Shown here one piece after another: positions 53,151 through 60,029 of a DNA stretch of 61,186 nucleotides. The position numbers and the translations under genes are program-made. Where the stretch lies: contig NZ_LLWC01000012.1 in assembly GCF_001561995.1 (NCBI RefSeq), positions 1 to 61,186 on the forward strand, read 5' to 3'. Position 1 is the stretch's first letter. Every line of letters starts with the position of its first letter. The notes beneath the pieces are model-generated. The model saw only the letters and a list, made by a program, of their open reading frames with translations, was not told where the DNA came from and did not search any database. This DNA is from Polycladidibacter hongkongensis (GTDB lineage Bacteria > Pseudomonadota > Alphaproteobacteria > Rhizobiales > Stappiaceae).

Positions 53151-53483
53151 ATGCAAAGCATTAGAACGGCAAAATTCGGGATTGGCAAGGTCGTGCGCCA
53201 CCGCACCTTCGGGTTTCGCGGCGTAATTTTTGACGTCGATCCTGTTTACGACAACACCGAGGAATGGTGGCAGTCGATCCCAGAGGATGTGCGTCCCCAC
53301 AAGGACCAACCCTTTTACCATCTGCTGGCAGAAAATGATGAGGAAGAATACGTCGCCTACGTATCTGAGCAAAATCTTGTCGAGGACAGCAGCGGCGAGC
53401 CCATAACCCACCCACAGCTTGACGACGTGTTCTTCGAAGATGAAGACGGCGCTTTGGTCGCACGGGACATCTACCTGCAATAA
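53151..53483 (+). CDS. hspQ: HspQ-family heat shock protein
   Basis: The 110-residue protein has the family pattern AKFGIGKVVRHRTFGFRGVIFDVDPVYDNTEEWW, HKDQPFYHLLAENDEEEYVAYVSEQNLV and HPQLDDVFFEDEDG. HspQ modulates Lon protease and, in E. coli, affects DnaA turnover. It is followed by a bidirectional terminator. Confidence 0.93.
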   Translation: MQSIRTAKFGIGKVVRHRTFGFRGVIFDVDPVYDNTEEWWQSIPEDVRPHKDQPFYHLLAENDEEEYVAYVSEQNLVEDSSGEPITHPQLDDVFFEDEDGALVARDIYLQ

Positions 53484-53575: not shown

Positions 53576-54193
53576 CTACTGACCCTGAGAAGCCTTGCGT
53601 TGCTGCTCAATCAGCTTTTGCCTTGCAGCTTCCGCCCGTGCTTGCAGCTCAGCCTGCAAACGTTCCTGTTTGGCTTGCAGCTCTTCTGGTTTGATCGCAG
53701 CACCGTCGTAAACTTTAGTGAAGCCTTTCAAAGTCATCTCAAAAGGACGGGCCTTACCCTGTTGGTTCAAGGTTGTAACAATCAGCTTACCGCCTCGTTT
53801 TAAGCCAGTGATGAAATCATTGCTGATAACCATTTCGGCAATACAGGCATTTGGGAAGCAGATGGTATAAGGCGCTTTTGCTGGCTTATTTCCGTCAACT
53901 TGGATAAGCAGGCCCTGCTGCAGCAACATCCCTGGCGGCACAGCAATATGCAGCAGCTTGCGATCTTCTCCGGTAATCTCACGCACAGCAGCCTGCACCA
54001 GCACCTGACCAGTGGCAGCCCGCAATTCCTGAGTGATAAGGCAGTGCTCTTTCTTCGACTTTGGATCGGTATTACAGATTTTCGTCCATGCATCATCAGC
54101 GCTTGCTTGTGCATTGGCAGATACAGCCATGCTGGCAAAGCCGAGTGCGGCAACGAAAGCACCGCCAACTAATTTCCTAAACATAATTGCCAT
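53576..54193 (-). CDS. IalB-family (invasion-associated locus B) periplasmic protein
   Basis: The 205-residue exported protein has signal peptide FRKLVGGAFVAALGFASMAVSANAQA. The core reads WTKICNTDPKSKKEHCLITQELRAATGQVLVQAAVREITGEDRKLL, PPGMLLQQGLLIQVDGNKPAKAPYTICFPNACIAEM and FEMTLKGFTKVYDG, with paired cysteines. A charged C-terminal coiled coil (ELQAKQERLQAELQARAEAARQKLIEQQRK) follows. ATGs at 54193 and 54184 are both possible. IalB was first tied to Bartonella erythrocyte invasion, but homologues are widespread in alphaproteobacteria. Confidence 0.9.
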   Translation of the reverse strand: MAIMFRKLVGGAFVAALGFASMAVSANAQASADDAWTKICNTDPKSKKEHCLITQELRAATGQVLVQAAVREITGEDRKLLHIAVPPGMLLQQGLLIQVDGNKPAKAPYTICFPNACIAEMVISNDFITGLKRGGKLIVTTLNQQGKARPFEMTLKGFTKVYDGAAIKPEELQAKQERLQAELQARAEAARQKLIEQQRKASQGQ

Positions 54194-54532: not shown

Positions 54533-56401
54533 ATGAAGCAGATGAAGATATTGACAAGGCACAGTGTTGTAGGTGCCAGCCTCTTGCTTCTGCTTGGCCC
54601 TTTGGGCATCGCCACCAATGCCGCCCCAGATGAGGACGTGCCGTGGCGCCACGCCATTGCTATGCACGGGGAACCCGCCTTGCCCGCAAATATCAAGCAT
54701 TTTCCCTATGTCAATCCGAAGGCCAACAAAGACGGCAACATCACCTTTGGCGTGCAAGGAACGTTCAACAGCTTGAACTCCTATGCACTAAAAGGCGCTT
54801 GGACATCGGCTCGCGGCATGCGGGAACGGGAGATGGGCTCGAATGTTTTGGAGAGCCTGTTGGCGCGTTCCTACAACGAACCCTTCAGCCTATACGCACA
54901 CTTGGCCGAGGCCGTACGCCTGCCTGAGGACCGTTCGTGGATAGAGTTTCGGCTAAACCCCAAAGCGCGGTTTTCCAACGGTGACCCGGTGACCGTTGCA
55001 GATATTATCTTTTCGCTACAAACAATTCGTGATCATGGCCGCCCGCCCTACCGCGGCTGGTATGCGAAAATCAAAGAGTTTAAAGTAACAGGCGAGCGCA
55101 GCTTGAAACTGGTGTTCGAAAACGGTGATGATCGGGAATTGCCGCTGTTGATCTCGCTCGCACCAATTTTTAACAGCCGGACAACAAACCCGCAGGGCTT
55201 TGAGGCAACCACACTTACACCGCCCATTGGCTCCGGCCCCTACACGTTCAAAGTGATCGAGCCGGGCCGCCGCACCGTCTATGAGCGCGACCCGAATTAC
55301 TGGGCAAAAGACCTGCCTCAAAAAACCGGCTTTGATAACTTTAAACACATTACTGTCGACTATTATCGCGACTATAACGCCTTGCAAGAAGCATTCCGTA
55401 AAGGGGATGTGGATGTGCTGGTCTACTCCAATCCCAGCCTTTGGCAAAAAGCGCTAGATTTCCCCGCTGGTAAATCGGGAGAGGTGGTGAAAGACGTCTT
55501 TGCGCGGCAAACTCCGGCAAACTTCCTCGGCATCGCCTTCAATACCCGTAAAGATGTGTTTAAAGACAAACGCGTGCGCCAAGCGTTGGCCATGCTGTTC
55601 GATTTTAAAGCGATAAATCGCACTCTGTTTAGTGATCTCTACCAGCGTACTGGCAGCTACTGGCAGAACTCGGAGTTATCCGCGCTTGGCCACCCAGCTG
55701 GTGAGTGGGAGAAGACGTTTTTCGCCAAATATCCAGATTTGGTTGAGCCTGAGGTAATGCAAGGCACATGGCGACCGACAGAAGCGAATGGCTCGGGGCG
55801 TGATCGCAAGATTCTGCGGGCGGCCCTGCAAAAACTGCAGATGGCTGGCTATCAGCTGGAAAACGGCAGTTTGAAAAGCAACGAAACCGGGGAGCAACTG
55901 TCCTTCGAACTATTGGTCCGTGATAATGACGAGGAAAAAGTAGGGCTAAGCCTAAAACGCACCCTCAAGCTTGTTGGCATAGTTCTGCGTTTACGCCGGG
56001 TTGATGCCGCCCAGTTTGAAGAACGACGCGTCAATTTTCAGTTCGATGCAGTATTCAACACTTGGTTCGCCTCGCTCTCCCCCGGTGGTGAGCAATATGC
56101 AAGATGGTCTAGCAACGCAGCCGATACGCCCGGGTCGCGCAATATTGTTGGCGCAAAGGAACCGGCGATTGATGCGCTCATTGACGCTATGGTAGGTGCG
56201 AGAGATCGCGAAGAGTTTGTACAAATCGTCCGCGCTTTTGATCGAGTTCTTATTTCAGGCGCCTATGCAATTCCGCTGTATCACGCCCCAGCGCAATGGT
56301 ATGCCCGTTGGACACATTTACAACGCCCTGAAACAACACCGCTTTATGGTGTCGAATTTGACATCTGGTGGGCAAACAACAATTTAACAAATAATCAGTA
56401 G
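54533..56401 (+). CDS. Family-5 extracellular solute-binding protein (YejA-like), orphan
   Basis: The 622-residue periplasmic binding protein has signal peptide KILTRHSVVGASLLLLLGPLGIATNA. Mature motifs are WRHAIAMHGEPALPANIKHFPYVNPKANKDGNITFGVQGTFNSLNSY, ARFSNGDPVTVADIIFSLQTIRDHGRP and GSGPYTFKVIEPGRRTVYERDPNYWAKDLP, matching YejA-type (oligopeptide) proteins. No permease or ATPase is nearby. The next two genes follow within 20 nt each, suggesting one transcript with degenerate-enzyme partners. GAGGG precedes the ATG. Confidence 0.9.
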   Translation: MKQMKILTRHSVVGASLLLLLGPLGIATNAAPDEDVPWRHAIAMHGEPALPANIKHFPYVNPKANKDGNITFGVQGTFNSLNSYALKGAWTSARGMREREMGSNVLESLLARSYNEPFSLYAHLAEAVRLPEDRSWIEFRLNPKARFSNGDPVTVADIIFSLQTIRDHGRPPYRGWYAKIKEFKVTGERSLKLVFENGDDRELPLLISLAPIFNSRTTNPQGFEATTLTPPIGSGPYTFKVIEPGRRTVYERDPNYWAKDLPQKTGFDNFKHITVDYYRDYNALQEAFRKGDVDVLVYSNPSLWQKALDFPAGKSGEVVKDVFARQTPANFLGIAFNTRKDVFKDKRVRQALAMLFDFKAINRTLFSDLYQRTGSYWQNSELSALGHPAGEWEKTFFAKYPDLVEPEVMQGTWRPTEANGSGRDRKILRAALQKLQMAGYQLENGSLKSNETGEQLSFELLVRDNDEEKVGLSLKRTLKLVGIVLRLRRVDAAQFEERRVNFQFDAVFNTWFASLSPGGEQYARWSSNAADTPGSRNIVGAKEPAIDALIDAMVGARDREEFVQIVRAFDRVLISGAYAIPLYHAPAQWYARWTHLQRPETTPLYGVEFDIWWANNNLTNNQ

Positions 56402-56419
56402 CCCTGGAGTGGCCTTGGA

Positions 56420-58054
56420 ATGATCCTGTCGGATGAGCAAACTATTGCCGACTATAGCAAAACTGGCGTCTGGGGAAATGTCACCTTGGACGCGCTTTTT
56501 CGCCGCGCTGCCCAACAAAACCCGCAAAGGATAGCCCTTGTTGACGCGCCAGACCGTGAAAGCTGGACCAGCGGCGCACCGCGCGCGCTAACCTATGCCG
56601 AAGCAGAGCAGGAAATCCGCGCCCTTGCAGGCTTTTTCAGCGCCGTCGGCTTGGAGCCTGATCAAATCATTGGTCTACAAGCGCCAAACACAGTAGATAC
56701 GGTTCTCACCATCCTAGCTGCCATGCGCGCAGGGCTCGTTGTTGCGACCTTTCCGTTGCATTGGCGTCACAACGAAGTCTTGCCCGCGCTTGTATCCATC
56801 GACGCCAAAGCCTTGATTACAGCAGATAGGGTTGAGACCCGGGTGATCGCAGAGGATGCGCTCGCCGCTGCCAGTGATAATTTTAATCTGAAATTTGTTT
56901 TCGGCCTTGGCAAACAGCTCCCAGATGGCATCTTGGAAATATCACAGGTAATAAATCAAGCACCGGAGCAGTTCGAAGAGCCACGCATTCATCGCCCGGG
57001 ACAGGCGGCAAACCACATCGCATCATTAACGTGGGTAACAACACCGGATGGCCCAGCCCCGGTGCCGCGCAGCCATAACCACTGGGTCGCCGCTGGCCTG
57101 ATGCCGTTTTTGGAAACAAGGCTTGAGGCCGGAGCCAAGATACTTCTGCCATATCTGCTCACAGGTTTATCCGGCTGGGGCGCAGGTCTTGTGCCTTGGC
57201 TTTTATGTGAAGGCACGCTGCACCTGCATCACCCACTTGCTTTGCATTCCCTTACAGATCATGCCCGCTGGATCGAGGCCGATTATCTTCCCGTGCCAGG
57301 ATCTTTGGCACCGTATCTGGATGAAGCGCTGCAAGGATGGCAAACAAAAATACTCGCTGCATGGAATACATCTGCCATGCCCCCTGTGGAATACGTGCCT
57401 TTAGGGGATTTCTACGATCTCCATGTTGCAGAGGAATACGGCATGGTTTGCCGCTTGCGTGGCAAGTCAAAAACCCCTCAGCTCTTTGATAAAGGTCCCC
57501 TCGCAGCCCCATCCGCCAGCCCCCATGCTCCCACACTTATCTCTTTGAATTCAACAGTGAAAACCACTGAGGATGAGACGAGAAATTTCCTTTCACTCGG
57601 CGGCGCGATGAGCCCGGATGTGGCCTATCCCACCCATAAGTTTTCCATTAATTTCTCTGAAAACGGTTTCATCAACACTAAAATTCCACTGATTGAAAGT
57701 GACCATAAAATATGCGGATTTGGGCGACCAGAAGCCACTGCCCCAGGAATTGCTCAGCTCGACTCACTAGATGAAGTCTACGGGGCTTTCCCTGAGATAA
57801 AGGAAGCAGCAGCTTTTTTGGTAGATGATGAGATCGTTGGACAGCGGCTGCTGGTTGCCGTCGTTCCGCAATCTGGCCACTTTGTTAAGGTGGATGCCTT
57901 TTACGCATATCTTGATGCATGCCGGGTCTCGGTCGCCCATTATCCGCATCAGATACTGCCTGTGCCGTCGATCCCGCGCACCCCCAACGGCGCGGTAGCG
58001 CGCCAGCAGCTGGCAGAAAAGGCATCTGCTCTTAAGTCGCAAAAAGTGGCCTAA
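56420..58054 (+). CDS. Adenylate-forming (ANL) superfamily protein with degenerate active site
   Basis: The 544-residue fold is recognisable: N-terminal LDALFRRAAQQNPQRIALVDAP, LTYAEAEQEIRALAGFFSAVGLEPDQIIGLQAPN, and a C-terminal domain DEVYGAFPEIKEAAAFLVDDEIVGQRLLVAVV. The A3 P-loop (usually TSGTTG.PKG) reads T204-WVTTPDGPAPVPRSH219, without Lys. The A5 YG.TE motif reads EEYGMVCRL (338-346). The C-terminal GK lysine is Ala525 (TPNGAVARQQL). Both catalytic lysines and the Thr-rich loop are lost, so normal acyl-adenylate formation is unlikely. It starts 18 nt after the binding protein gene. Confidence 0.82.
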   Translation: MILSDEQTIADYSKTGVWGNVTLDALFRRAAQQNPQRIALVDAPDRESWTSGAPRALTYAEAEQEIRALAGFFSAVGLEPDQIIGLQAPNTVDTVLTILAAMRAGLVVATFPLHWRHNEVLPALVSIDAKALITADRVETRVIAEDALAAASDNFNLKFVFGLGKQLPDGILEISQVINQAPEQFEEPRIHRPGQAANHIASLTWVTTPDGPAPVPRSHNHWVAAGLMPFLETRLEAGAKILLPYLLTGLSGWGAGLVPWLLCEGTLHLHHPLALHSLTDHARWIEADYLPVPGSLAPYLDEALQGWQTKILAAWNTSAMPPVEYVPLGDFYDLHVAEEYGMVCRLRGKSKTPQLFDKGPLAAPSASPHAPTLISLNSTVKTTEDETRNFLSLGGAMSPDVAYPTHKFSINFSENGFINTKIPLIESDHKICGFGRPEATAPGIAQLDSLDEVYGAFPEIKEAAAFLVDDEIVGQRLLVAVVPQSGHFVKVDAFYAYLDACRVSVAHYPHQILPVPSIPRTPNGAVARQQLAEKASALKSQKVA

Positions 58055-58073
58055 GCAATAAGGATGTACAGTT

Positions 58074-59318
58074 GTGAAACGCTACGATGTACAAAAGCAG
58101 TTCGAGCAAGCGCCACTGAAGGTGCCAATTATCGCCCCCGGCAATACCCATATTCAACAGTGGTGGTGTCGCATGGGGGCATCGGAGAACTTTTGCTTCA
58201 CACCAACAGCAGATGCATTGCGCGCTGTCGTCTCTGGTGGCGCGCCGCTACCGCCGGCGGTCATTCTCGTTTGGAACACTGTCAATCCGCCGCAAACACT
58301 TGAAGCCTATCAGGTTCTGCAGGAATTGCGCCACAAGACGGGTGTTGAGGTGCCAATCATCGTGATTGCCGCCAACAATGCAATCGTACCTGTTACCTTG
58401 AAAGCGCACGCGGTTTTTTCCGATACATTGCCCGCGGCGACTTTGATGAATGAAATTATCCGCTTAAGCCGTACTTCTGTTCGCTCTGAAGAGGCAAAGG
58501 TGCGCCGCTCACTATTTGGATCACAAATTTCACAGGGGGGCCGCTCTCATCAACCCCGCTCCCGGTTTGTCGGCATTATTGGCTCGGCCATAGAAACAGA
58601 CAAGGACCGGTTGGAAACAGCGTGCCATCAACTTGGTCGCACGCCGATTTGGCTACAAACGCTTGATGGTGTCTTCGCGTTGACTAATGGTCAGCGCGCC
58701 GCATTCGATGCCTTCTTTGTGGATGCTGATCTGGAGGACTGCGCACCGCACCTCACGCAAGTTGGCCAGATTTATCGCCGTCGCAAACCGCCGGTATTTG
58801 CGTTTACCAATTACAAAGCCAGCTATGCAGACCTTTATGAAGCAGGGGTTCCCCGCGTACTGCCAGCAAATTTGGGGATTAAAGCTCTAAAAGGCCACTT
58901 GCGCACGGCCTTCCGTGCGCGTCAAAGGGCTCAAGTTTCCGATGCTGTGCTAGAAAGGACCAGCGCTTGGCTCTCGCGCGCCGACGAAGGCCGGACCATC
59001 CCTTTGGTGACCTATAATAAATATCTCGAAGGGCTTGAGGTTTCCACCACCCGGCGCGGGGAAAGCGTCAATGAATTGCACTTGATGGATCTCTTACGCC
59101 GCTTCTCCGGGGTCAATCTACCGGCATTCCTACCCGATATGAATCAGGTGGAAGGTGCCATCCTTTCATTGGCAATGGCCGTCTGCCGCGACGAGGATTT
59201 TGTCGCAAATGTCGAGAAACTAGGTCCGGTTGCCGTGCTGCGCTCTCCATTGGGCAAACAGCAACTTACGCAACGGATTAACACCCTTATCAAAACCACA
59301 GGAATTGCTAGTATTTAA
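58074..59318 (+). CDS. Degenerate receiver / GGDEF-like (PleD-like) protein
   Basis: The 414-residue soluble protein starts at GTG 58074 (AAGGAT upstream), 19 nt after the ANL-like gene. Residues 15-130 and 165-290 read as two receiver-like alpha/beta domains (PPAVILVWNTVNPPQTLEAYQVLQELR, RFVGIIGSAIETDKDRLETACHQLGR) without the usual phospho-acceptor Asp set. Residues 300-414 look like a worn GGDEF domain: IPLVTYNKYLEGL..., then MAVCRDEDFVANVEKLGPVAVLRSPL, where VARYGGDEF would be expected. So it probably neither is phosphorylated nor makes c-di-GMP. Role unknown; the assignment is by pattern. Confidence 0.55.
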   Translation: MKRYDVQKQFEQAPLKVPIIAPGNTHIQQWWCRMGASENFCFTPTADALRAVVSGGAPLPPAVILVWNTVNPPQTLEAYQVLQELRHKTGVEVPIIVIAANNAIVPVTLKAHAVFSDTLPAATLMNEIIRLSRTSVRSEEAKVRRSLFGSQISQGGRSHQPRSRFVGIIGSAIETDKDRLETACHQLGRTPIWLQTLDGVFALTNGQRAAFDAFFVDADLEDCAPHLTQVGQIYRRRKPPVFAFTNYKASYADLYEAGVPRVLPANLGIKALKGHLRTAFRARQRAQVSDAVLERTSAWLSRADEGRTIPLVTYNKYLEGLEVSTTRRGESVNELHLMDLLRRFSGVNLPAFLPDMNQVEGAILSLAMAVCRDEDFVANVEKLGPVAVLRSPLGKQQLTQRINTLIKTTGIASI

Positions 59319-59372: not shown

Positions 59373-60029
59373 ATGAGCGCTTCAAATCCTATTCGCATTA
59401 CAGTGATTTCTGATGTGGTGTGCCCGTTTTGCTTTGTTGGGCAAAGGCGTCTGGAAGCTGCTATTCAGGCGCTTCCGGATGAACACGTCGAGGTTCTCTG
59501 GCGGCCATTTCAATTGGATGCCACGCTGCCCCCTGAGGGAATTTCCCGCGAAGAGTACTTTGTAAACAAATTCGGTTCCATGGAACCTGTCCGCCGCATG
59601 CAGCAGACTCTCATGGTTATGGGCGAGGAAACGGGGATTAACTTTGCGTTTGATCGGGCAGAAATCGCGCCCAACACCCGCGATTGCCACCGCCTCATGC
59701 ATTGGGCCACCCCGGGCGCGCAACAACAGCAGCTGGTGGCACACCTGTTCTCGCGGTTTTTCGAAGAGGGTGCCGATTTCACCCAGCAAAGCGAATTACT
59801 TGATGCTGCCGAAGCCTGCGGCATGAACCGCGAACTCACCAAAGCCCGCCTGGATAGCGAAGAGGATATCGATACCATCGCCCGCCAAAACGACGAAGCG
59901 CACACCATGGGTGTAAACGGTGTCCCCTTCTTCATCATTGATGATCGCTTCGCCATCTCTGGGGCTCAAGAAACGCAGACACTCGCTGCTGCCATTCAAC
60001 ACGCGCGACAAACCAAATCGGAAAGCTAG
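59373..60029 (+). CDS. DsbA-family (FrnE-like) thioredoxin-fold oxidoreductase
   Basis: The 218-residue cytoplasmic protein has active site C-P-F-C in ISDVVCPFCFVGQRRLEAAI, then RPFQLDATLPPEG, NTRDCHRLMHWA, a helical insertion and the cis-Pro loop MGVNGVPFFIIDDRFAISGAQ. It lacks a signal peptide. FrnE-like proteins act on disulfides or as 2-hydroxychromene-2-carboxylate-type isomerases. GAGGG lies upstream. It is 54 nt after the GGDEF-like gene and may be a separate unit. Confidence 0.92.
   Translation: MSASNPIRITVISDVVCPFCFVGQRRLEAAIQALPDEHVEVLWRPFQLDATLPPEGISREEYFVNKFGSMEPVRRMQQTLMVMGEETGINFAFDRAEIAPNTRDCHRLMHWATPGAQQQQLVAHLFSRFFEEGADFTQQSELLDAAEACGMNRELTKARLDSEEDIDTIARQNDEAHTMGVNGVPFFIIDDRFAISGAQETQTLAAAIQHARQTKSES

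Follow-up and report, generated by a model that had tools for sequence, protein, structure and literature searches.

What a solute-binding protein and two enzyme-like proteins devoid of catalytic motifs are doing side by side is the question raised by a gene group of Polycladidibacter hongkongensis, a marine bacterium of the Pseudovibrio group in the family Stappiaceae, in the window examined here, a stretch of 61,186 bases that makes up one contig (NZ_LLWC01000012.1) of a 3.74 Mb genome. Three intact open reading frames lie on the forward strand at 54533-56401, 56420-58054 and 58074-59318, closely packed with gaps of 18 and 19 nucleotides (nt), as an earlier note on this DNA had described them; they encode a solute-binding protein (SBP), a protein of the ANL superfamily (acyl-CoA-ligase-like), and a protein with two receiver domains ahead of a degenerate GGDEF fold (REC). 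The earlier note took the first for an orphan binding protein and suggested a ligand-responsive complex of all three, and we found its observations confirmed and its interpretation partly supported. The reading that we prefer, to which we give an even chance, is that of a YepA locus with two cytosolic pseudo-enzymes, in which REC would link cyclic di-GMP (c-di-GMP) to peptidoglycan recycling or polar growth. Searches of the open-access literature turned up no paper with the look of a description of the three-gene set.

The SBP (54533..56401, + strand, 622 aa; Pfam SBP_bac_5, 2e-59) is very probably YepA, the muropeptide-binding partner of YejBEF, as judged from its position and phylogeny. According to Gilmore and Cava (PMC9790009), YepA of Agrobacterium tumefaciens (Atu1774) is the muropeptide-binding protein of YejBEF, is encoded apart from the permease, and holds a conserved position beside RgsG, a protein of polar growth, and a gene for a DsbA-like protein (Atu1775); PMC7327166 gives an IalB domain for RgsG of S. 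meliloti (SMc00950), and PMC10128002 equates smc00951 with yepA. The window gene, likewise a family 5 SBP away from its permease, is flanked on the left by a divergent IalB-domain gene of the RgsG type (53576..54193, - strand; Pfam IalB, 1.7e-31) and on the right, 54 nt past the third frame, by a DsbA-like (FrnE-type) gene that ends the block (59373..60029, + strand; Pfam DSBA, 4.6e-44), and a tandem-SBP yejABEF operon is present on another contig of the genome. It is because these flanks match the published position of YepA, and because yejABEF lies elsewhere, that we assign the SBP to YepA. The absence of transporter genes recorded in the earlier note thus holds locally and not genome-wide, and the idea of an orphan transporter component was ruled out by the distant operon.

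Phylogeny pointed the same way, in that six YejA-type SBPs (two from the yejABEF operon of the window genome and four from relatives whose operon was unchecked) split from 29 locus SBPs with support of 98/86, and the window protein stood apart from YejA with the Agrobacterium, Rhizobium and Brucella proteins of the same position; one class-level SBP (L296) fell on the YejA side of the tree. A further likeness to the YejBEF-YepA system is that the AmpG-related model TIGR00901 gave no match in the window genome, with E. coli and Caulobacter controls positive. The window differs, however, in what follows the SBP: in Rhizobium, Agrobacterium, Brucella, Phyllobacterium and Mesorhizobium loci the order is IalB, SBP and DsbA-like with neither ANL nor REC intervening, whereas here two putative cytosolic pseudo-enzymes stand between SBP and DsbA-like gene. 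By eye, an N-terminal leader is visible in YepA and none in ANL or REC, which would place YepA and the other two products on opposite sides of the membrane. In a separate comparison with the YepA-type profile, PDB entry 5icq ('MbnE' of Methylocystis parvus) scored 854 bits, 7z8e (which we take to be YejA of S. meliloti) 650, and PDB chains named YejA 528-532; a methanobactin role for the SBP was considered and set aside, the score of 5icq being read as kinship only.

The second protein (56420..58054, + strand, 544 aa) has ANL domains without the motifs of an ANL enzyme. Pfam assigned AMP-binding over residues 27-149 only and AMP-binding_C at the cut-off, and the family profile also matched solved ANL structures. 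For the motifs we use the customary names A3, A5, A7 and A10. The A3 stretch (codons 199-224, 57014..57091, + strand) reads TWVTTPDGPAPVPRSHNHW and has no P-loop, and the A10 lysine position (codon 525, 57992..57994, + strand) is occupied by alanine, so that both losses recorded in the earlier note are borne out. When 61 ANL sequences were aligned (the window, 20 from the family Stappiaceae and 40 from elsewhere in the order Hyphomicrobiales, with motif columns defined on the intact sister L266), neither the A3 loop motif nor the A7 aspartate was present in any (0/61 for each), and lysine survived in the A3 column of three and the A10 column of four.

Intact relatives were found outside the order. 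From a class-level sample of 385 genomes, 41 of which passed E 1e-50 and six of which were looked at (L266, L267, L268, L272, L273 and L274), three sisters (L266-L268) retained the loop as WTSGTEA.PKGVPR; L266 occupies the same slot as the window gene and shares VPRSHNHW after the loop, and the SBP is absent from the short contigs fetched for L267 and L268. These acyl-CoA ligases resemble the window family in their Pfam domains and are unlike it in keeping the P-loop, the A7 aspartate and the A10 lysine, the last of which the window family lacks nearly always. In a tree of 43 hand-chosen dead sequences, the three sisters, five other active ANLs and nine second ANLs, the dead sequences formed one clade (100/100) with the intact sisters adjacent under midpoint rooting, which argues for a single loss of catalysis followed by long retention. 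Fifteen hand-picked pairs were run for dN/dS, and in the five with ANL dS ≤0.51 the ANL values were 0.081, 0.050, 0.078, 0.067 and 0.025, lower in each pair than those of the SBP (0.136, 0.163, 0.115, 0.114 and 0.081). Judged on such sequence comparisons, the ANL is an old, non-catalytic family and not a decaying one; simple decay of the gene was ruled out by the selection values and the single clade. In the open-access literature searched, we found no account of ANL-superfamily pseudo-enzymes maintained by strong selection throughout an order of bacteria.

The third protein (58074..59318, + strand, 414 aa, GTG start) gave nothing above the Pfam cut-off; its best match in both sequence and fold was PleD, with which it shares two receiver domains ahead of a GGDEF fold. 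In the fold comparison (VIA) the PleD entries lay within 1 Z of single receiver domains, and the rows covered mostly residues 161-295. The 67 matches, less L212 and L222 and with the window added, gave an alignment of 66 REC rows, 61 of them distinct. The active site GG[DE]EF occurred in none of the 61 distinct rows (the window has EKLGP there, in keeping with the loss of GGDEF that had been noted earlier), and the RxxD of the I-site motif was retained in 59 (RDED in the window, codons 372-375, 59187..59198, + strand). Arg401 (59274..59276, + strand), which aligns with the arginine of the AERIR helix of PleD in alignments to 1w25 and the paralogues, was arginine in 66/66 rows.

Six PleD-like paralogues from six locus-bearing genomes kept both RxxD and GGEEF and separated from the locus REC at 100/100. 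Compared with PleD itself (PDB 1w25, 9g86), the window protein has both receiver domains and aligns at the I-site residues; it differs in lacking GGEEF, in a first receiver domain without an aspartate at the usual place (by eye), and in that GGEEF-bearing PleD-like proteins are separate genes in the six other genomes tested. These six genomes of the order carry both genes, whereas the window genome has no PleD-like protein besides the locus REC at E 1e-6, and Stappiaceae may be without PleD. A parallel in layout and motif is PopA of Caulobacter, described in PMC10333796 as two receiver domains and a degenerate GGDEF domain with RxxD kept and catalysis lost; in the Stappiaceae protein the GGDEF part is shortened. 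Retention of RxxD despite the loss of GGDEF suggests that REC is a PopA-like c-di-GMP receptor. For both degenerate folds, then, catalytic motifs were lost across the order as the genes were kept, which agrees with the conserved non-catalytic role that the earlier note had proposed for them.

How far the genes travel together was followed in two sets of loci, one selected by the ANL and one by the SBP. A full-length ANL match was present in 83/87 genomes of the family; of the other four, G214 had none, G211 only weak matches to other ANLs, and G201 and G243 broken or split copies. The order IalB (- strand), SBP, ANL, REC, DsbA-like was matched directly in 18/20 family loci from seven genera, and the remaining two hold a divergent REC in the same slot. 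The SBP lies directly upstream of the ANL in all 20 family loci and in all 40 loci taken, by their ANL match, from the rest of the order. An iterated profile search found REC in 23 of these 40 and not in the other 17, one of which (L124) ends too early to show it. The SBP-selected set was drawn by an SBP alignment search of named genomes as the best 80 of 584, five of which had too little downstream DNA; among the remaining 75 loci, 48 carried neither ANL nor REC, 22 both, four ANL only and one REC only (a weak REC-type match upstream of the L212 SBP was left uncounted). By record title, loci with YepA and neither of the others were mostly from Rhizobiaceae, Phyllobacteriaceae and Brucellaceae, and all three genes occur in three Bradyrhizobium records (L223, L228 and L232). 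The expectation that the trio would stay together across genera was upheld for SBP-ANL adjacency (60/61 ANL-selected loci) and not for YepA at large. The homologues were neither scattered through unrelated contexts nor mostly catalytically intact, either of which the earlier note would have counted against itself, since both folds are conserved as non-catalytic across the order and the genes are mostly together. Long open frames had raised the possibility of an ANL-REC fusion. This was dismissed for the one frame checked individually, that of L047 (G146), which crosses the ANL in a different reading frame and has a start codon at a 4-base overlap.

The mechanism that we favour runs as follows. 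YepA would bind muropeptides in the periplasm and deliver them to YejBEF, the permease whose genes lie elsewhere in the genome. The pseudo-ANL would be an acyl-CoA ligase whose ATP chemistry was lost in one event close to the base of Hyphomicrobiales and which has been retained since then, most likely to serve as a scaffold or to sense an acyl or carboxylic-acid ligand. The PleD paralogue, its GTP chemistry lost and its c-di-GMP I-site motif kept, would most likely act as a PopA-like receptor through which c-di-GMP could affect polar growth or the recycling of peptidoglycan; the pseudo-ANL would work alongside it without being an obligate partner. The genes yepA, anl and rec are probably on one transcript; a promoter and terminator scan at the locus stayed near chance level. 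A bolder version, to which we give only a slender chance, is a c-di-GMP-controlled module for recycling or polar growth in Hyphomicrobiales, in which a PopA-like receptor and a member of an order-wide, non-catalytic ANL family sensing a wall-derived or acyl ligand share a transcript with the muropeptide SBP. The locus bears on the regulation of YejBEF-YepA wall recycling in this order, on the roles of RgsG and its DsbA-like neighbour, and on a possible c-di-GMP link to polar growth, and it offers Arg372, Asp375 and Arg401 as defined candidate residues, with the Bradyrhizobium loci as a further setting for them.

Several observations weigh against this reading. The A5 glutamate is retained in 46/61 ANL sequences, and the ANL may therefore still have some ligand chemistry. 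In three divergent pairs the ANL dN/dS rose to 0.17, 0.35 and 0.63, and other genes were raised too, among them the SBP (0.16, 0.26 and 0.35). REC evolves fast, with dN/dS of 0.200, 0.142, 0.306, 0.339 and 0.057 in the five closest pairs, and in Stappiaceae its GGDEF fold ends shortly after the Arg401 helix, making it shorter than that of PleD. Nor is RxxD alone proof of c-di-GMP binding, since RgsP of S. meliloti is reported (PMC6107284) to have an intact RxxD and no c-di-GMP binding in vitro. The genes also come apart. The ANL was lost from at least two Pseudovibrio genomes that kept REC, P. flavus (G214) and G211, the latter with REC alone (L303 11503-12750) between transposase-like frames (by eye) after a rearrangement that removed the ANL; in G117, another genome of the order, an ANL shortened to a 437-aa frame (L274 5779-7092) adjoins IalB and HspQ, and the YepA-type SBP is absent there; and REC is missing from many ANL-bearing loci. 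It follows that none of the three genes needs the others.

The strongest competitor, which we think rather less likely than the c-di-GMP-linked YepA locus and by no means negligible, holds that the genes are neighbours by history, in that an old chromosomal slot is all that YepA, the pseudo-ANL and the receptor have in common, their jobs being unrelated; the ANL would be a leftover, since recruited to another role, of a catabolic cluster that other alphaproteobacteria still have at this slot. In its favour is what the slot holds in other orders. In L266 (5633-16305) the interval from SBP to DsbA-like gene contains FadL, an NMO-like flavoprotein, the intact ANL1, a histidine phosphatase, an AMACR-type CoA transferase, a second ANL (ANL2), a symporter and an SDR (with the phosphatase, AMACR, symporter and SDR identified from sequence by eye), which together make a cluster for the catabolism of lipids or aromatic acids next to a YepA-type SBP; the best NCBIfam scores of the L266 ligase were to PRK06187 and cyclohexanecarboxylate-CoA ligase, both below cut-off. 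Phosphatase, AMACR, ANL2, SDR and DsbA-like gene were all present in 6/20 further class-sample SBP loci outside the order (L283-L288), AMACR without the full set in five more (L290, L291, L294, L298 and L302), and no AMACR in the remaining nine, which include the short contigs L292 and L300. With such gene content in the slot outside the order, the pseudo-ANL most likely descends from the acyl-CoA ligase of a catabolic cluster at this position.

Historical adjacency is also favoured by the separability of the genes and by the surrounding block, which is largely syntenic over a longer run (AEC, acyltransferase, HpcH, HspQ, IalB, YepA ... DsbA-like); as much of the synteny belongs to this block, the togetherness of the three is weak evidence of one machine. 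Against it stand the tight spacing of the locus genes, which in many cases lie only a few bases apart or overlap by 4, and the near restriction of REC to loci with ANL (of the SBP-selected loci, 22 of the 26 that hold ANL, L222 weakly, vs 1 of the 49 that do not), a contrast that is phylogenetically confounded. The distance residuals of SBP, ANL and REC also correlate, weakly, with partial r of 0.54-0.71 after allowing for three neighbours; the ANL-REC value fell to 0.31 when the SBP was also taken into account, and in the raw values the ANL correlated best with IalB (r 0.87), so that we read these correlations as weak support for a shared setting.

The proposal of the earlier note, in which the binding protein, the pseudo-ANL and the receiver protein form a complex that responds to a ligand, appears improbable. 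SBP-ANL adjacency in ANL-selected loci is what it would predict, yet YepA stands alone in 48/75 loci, two lineages have REC and no ANL, several have ANL and no REC, G117 has ANL and no SBP, and the leader visible on YepA alone would set it across the membrane from the other two; since each gene is found without one or both of the others, a fixed three-protein complex is unlikely. Least probable of all, and very improbable in our judgement, is that ANL and REC are functionless relics in slow decay, for although catalytic motifs are gone, C-terminal parts are missing or eroded in sequences such as L137, L138 and L154 and some genomes have lost the genes outright, the ANL is more constrained than the SBP in every one of the five closest pairs, is full-length in nearly the whole family and lost catalysis in a single old event.

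Some smaller features of these loci may be recorded here. Directly after the dead ANL, 9 of the 40 loci from outside the family carry a second, benzoate-CoA-ligase-like ANL (L127 9729-11306 and eight others), with motifs intact where the DNA piece extends that far, the L124 copy being cut by the contig end. In the conserved neighbourhood, to the left of the IalB-domain gene, lies a gene at 53151..53483 (+ strand) encoding an HspQ-like protein, with tblastn matches in most loci fetched. The hyphomicrobial IalB-SBP-DsbA block also turned up on contigs whose titles name Bacillus subtilis SK6B4 and Arenimonas sp. (L177 and L215); these records are probably mislabelled or contaminated.

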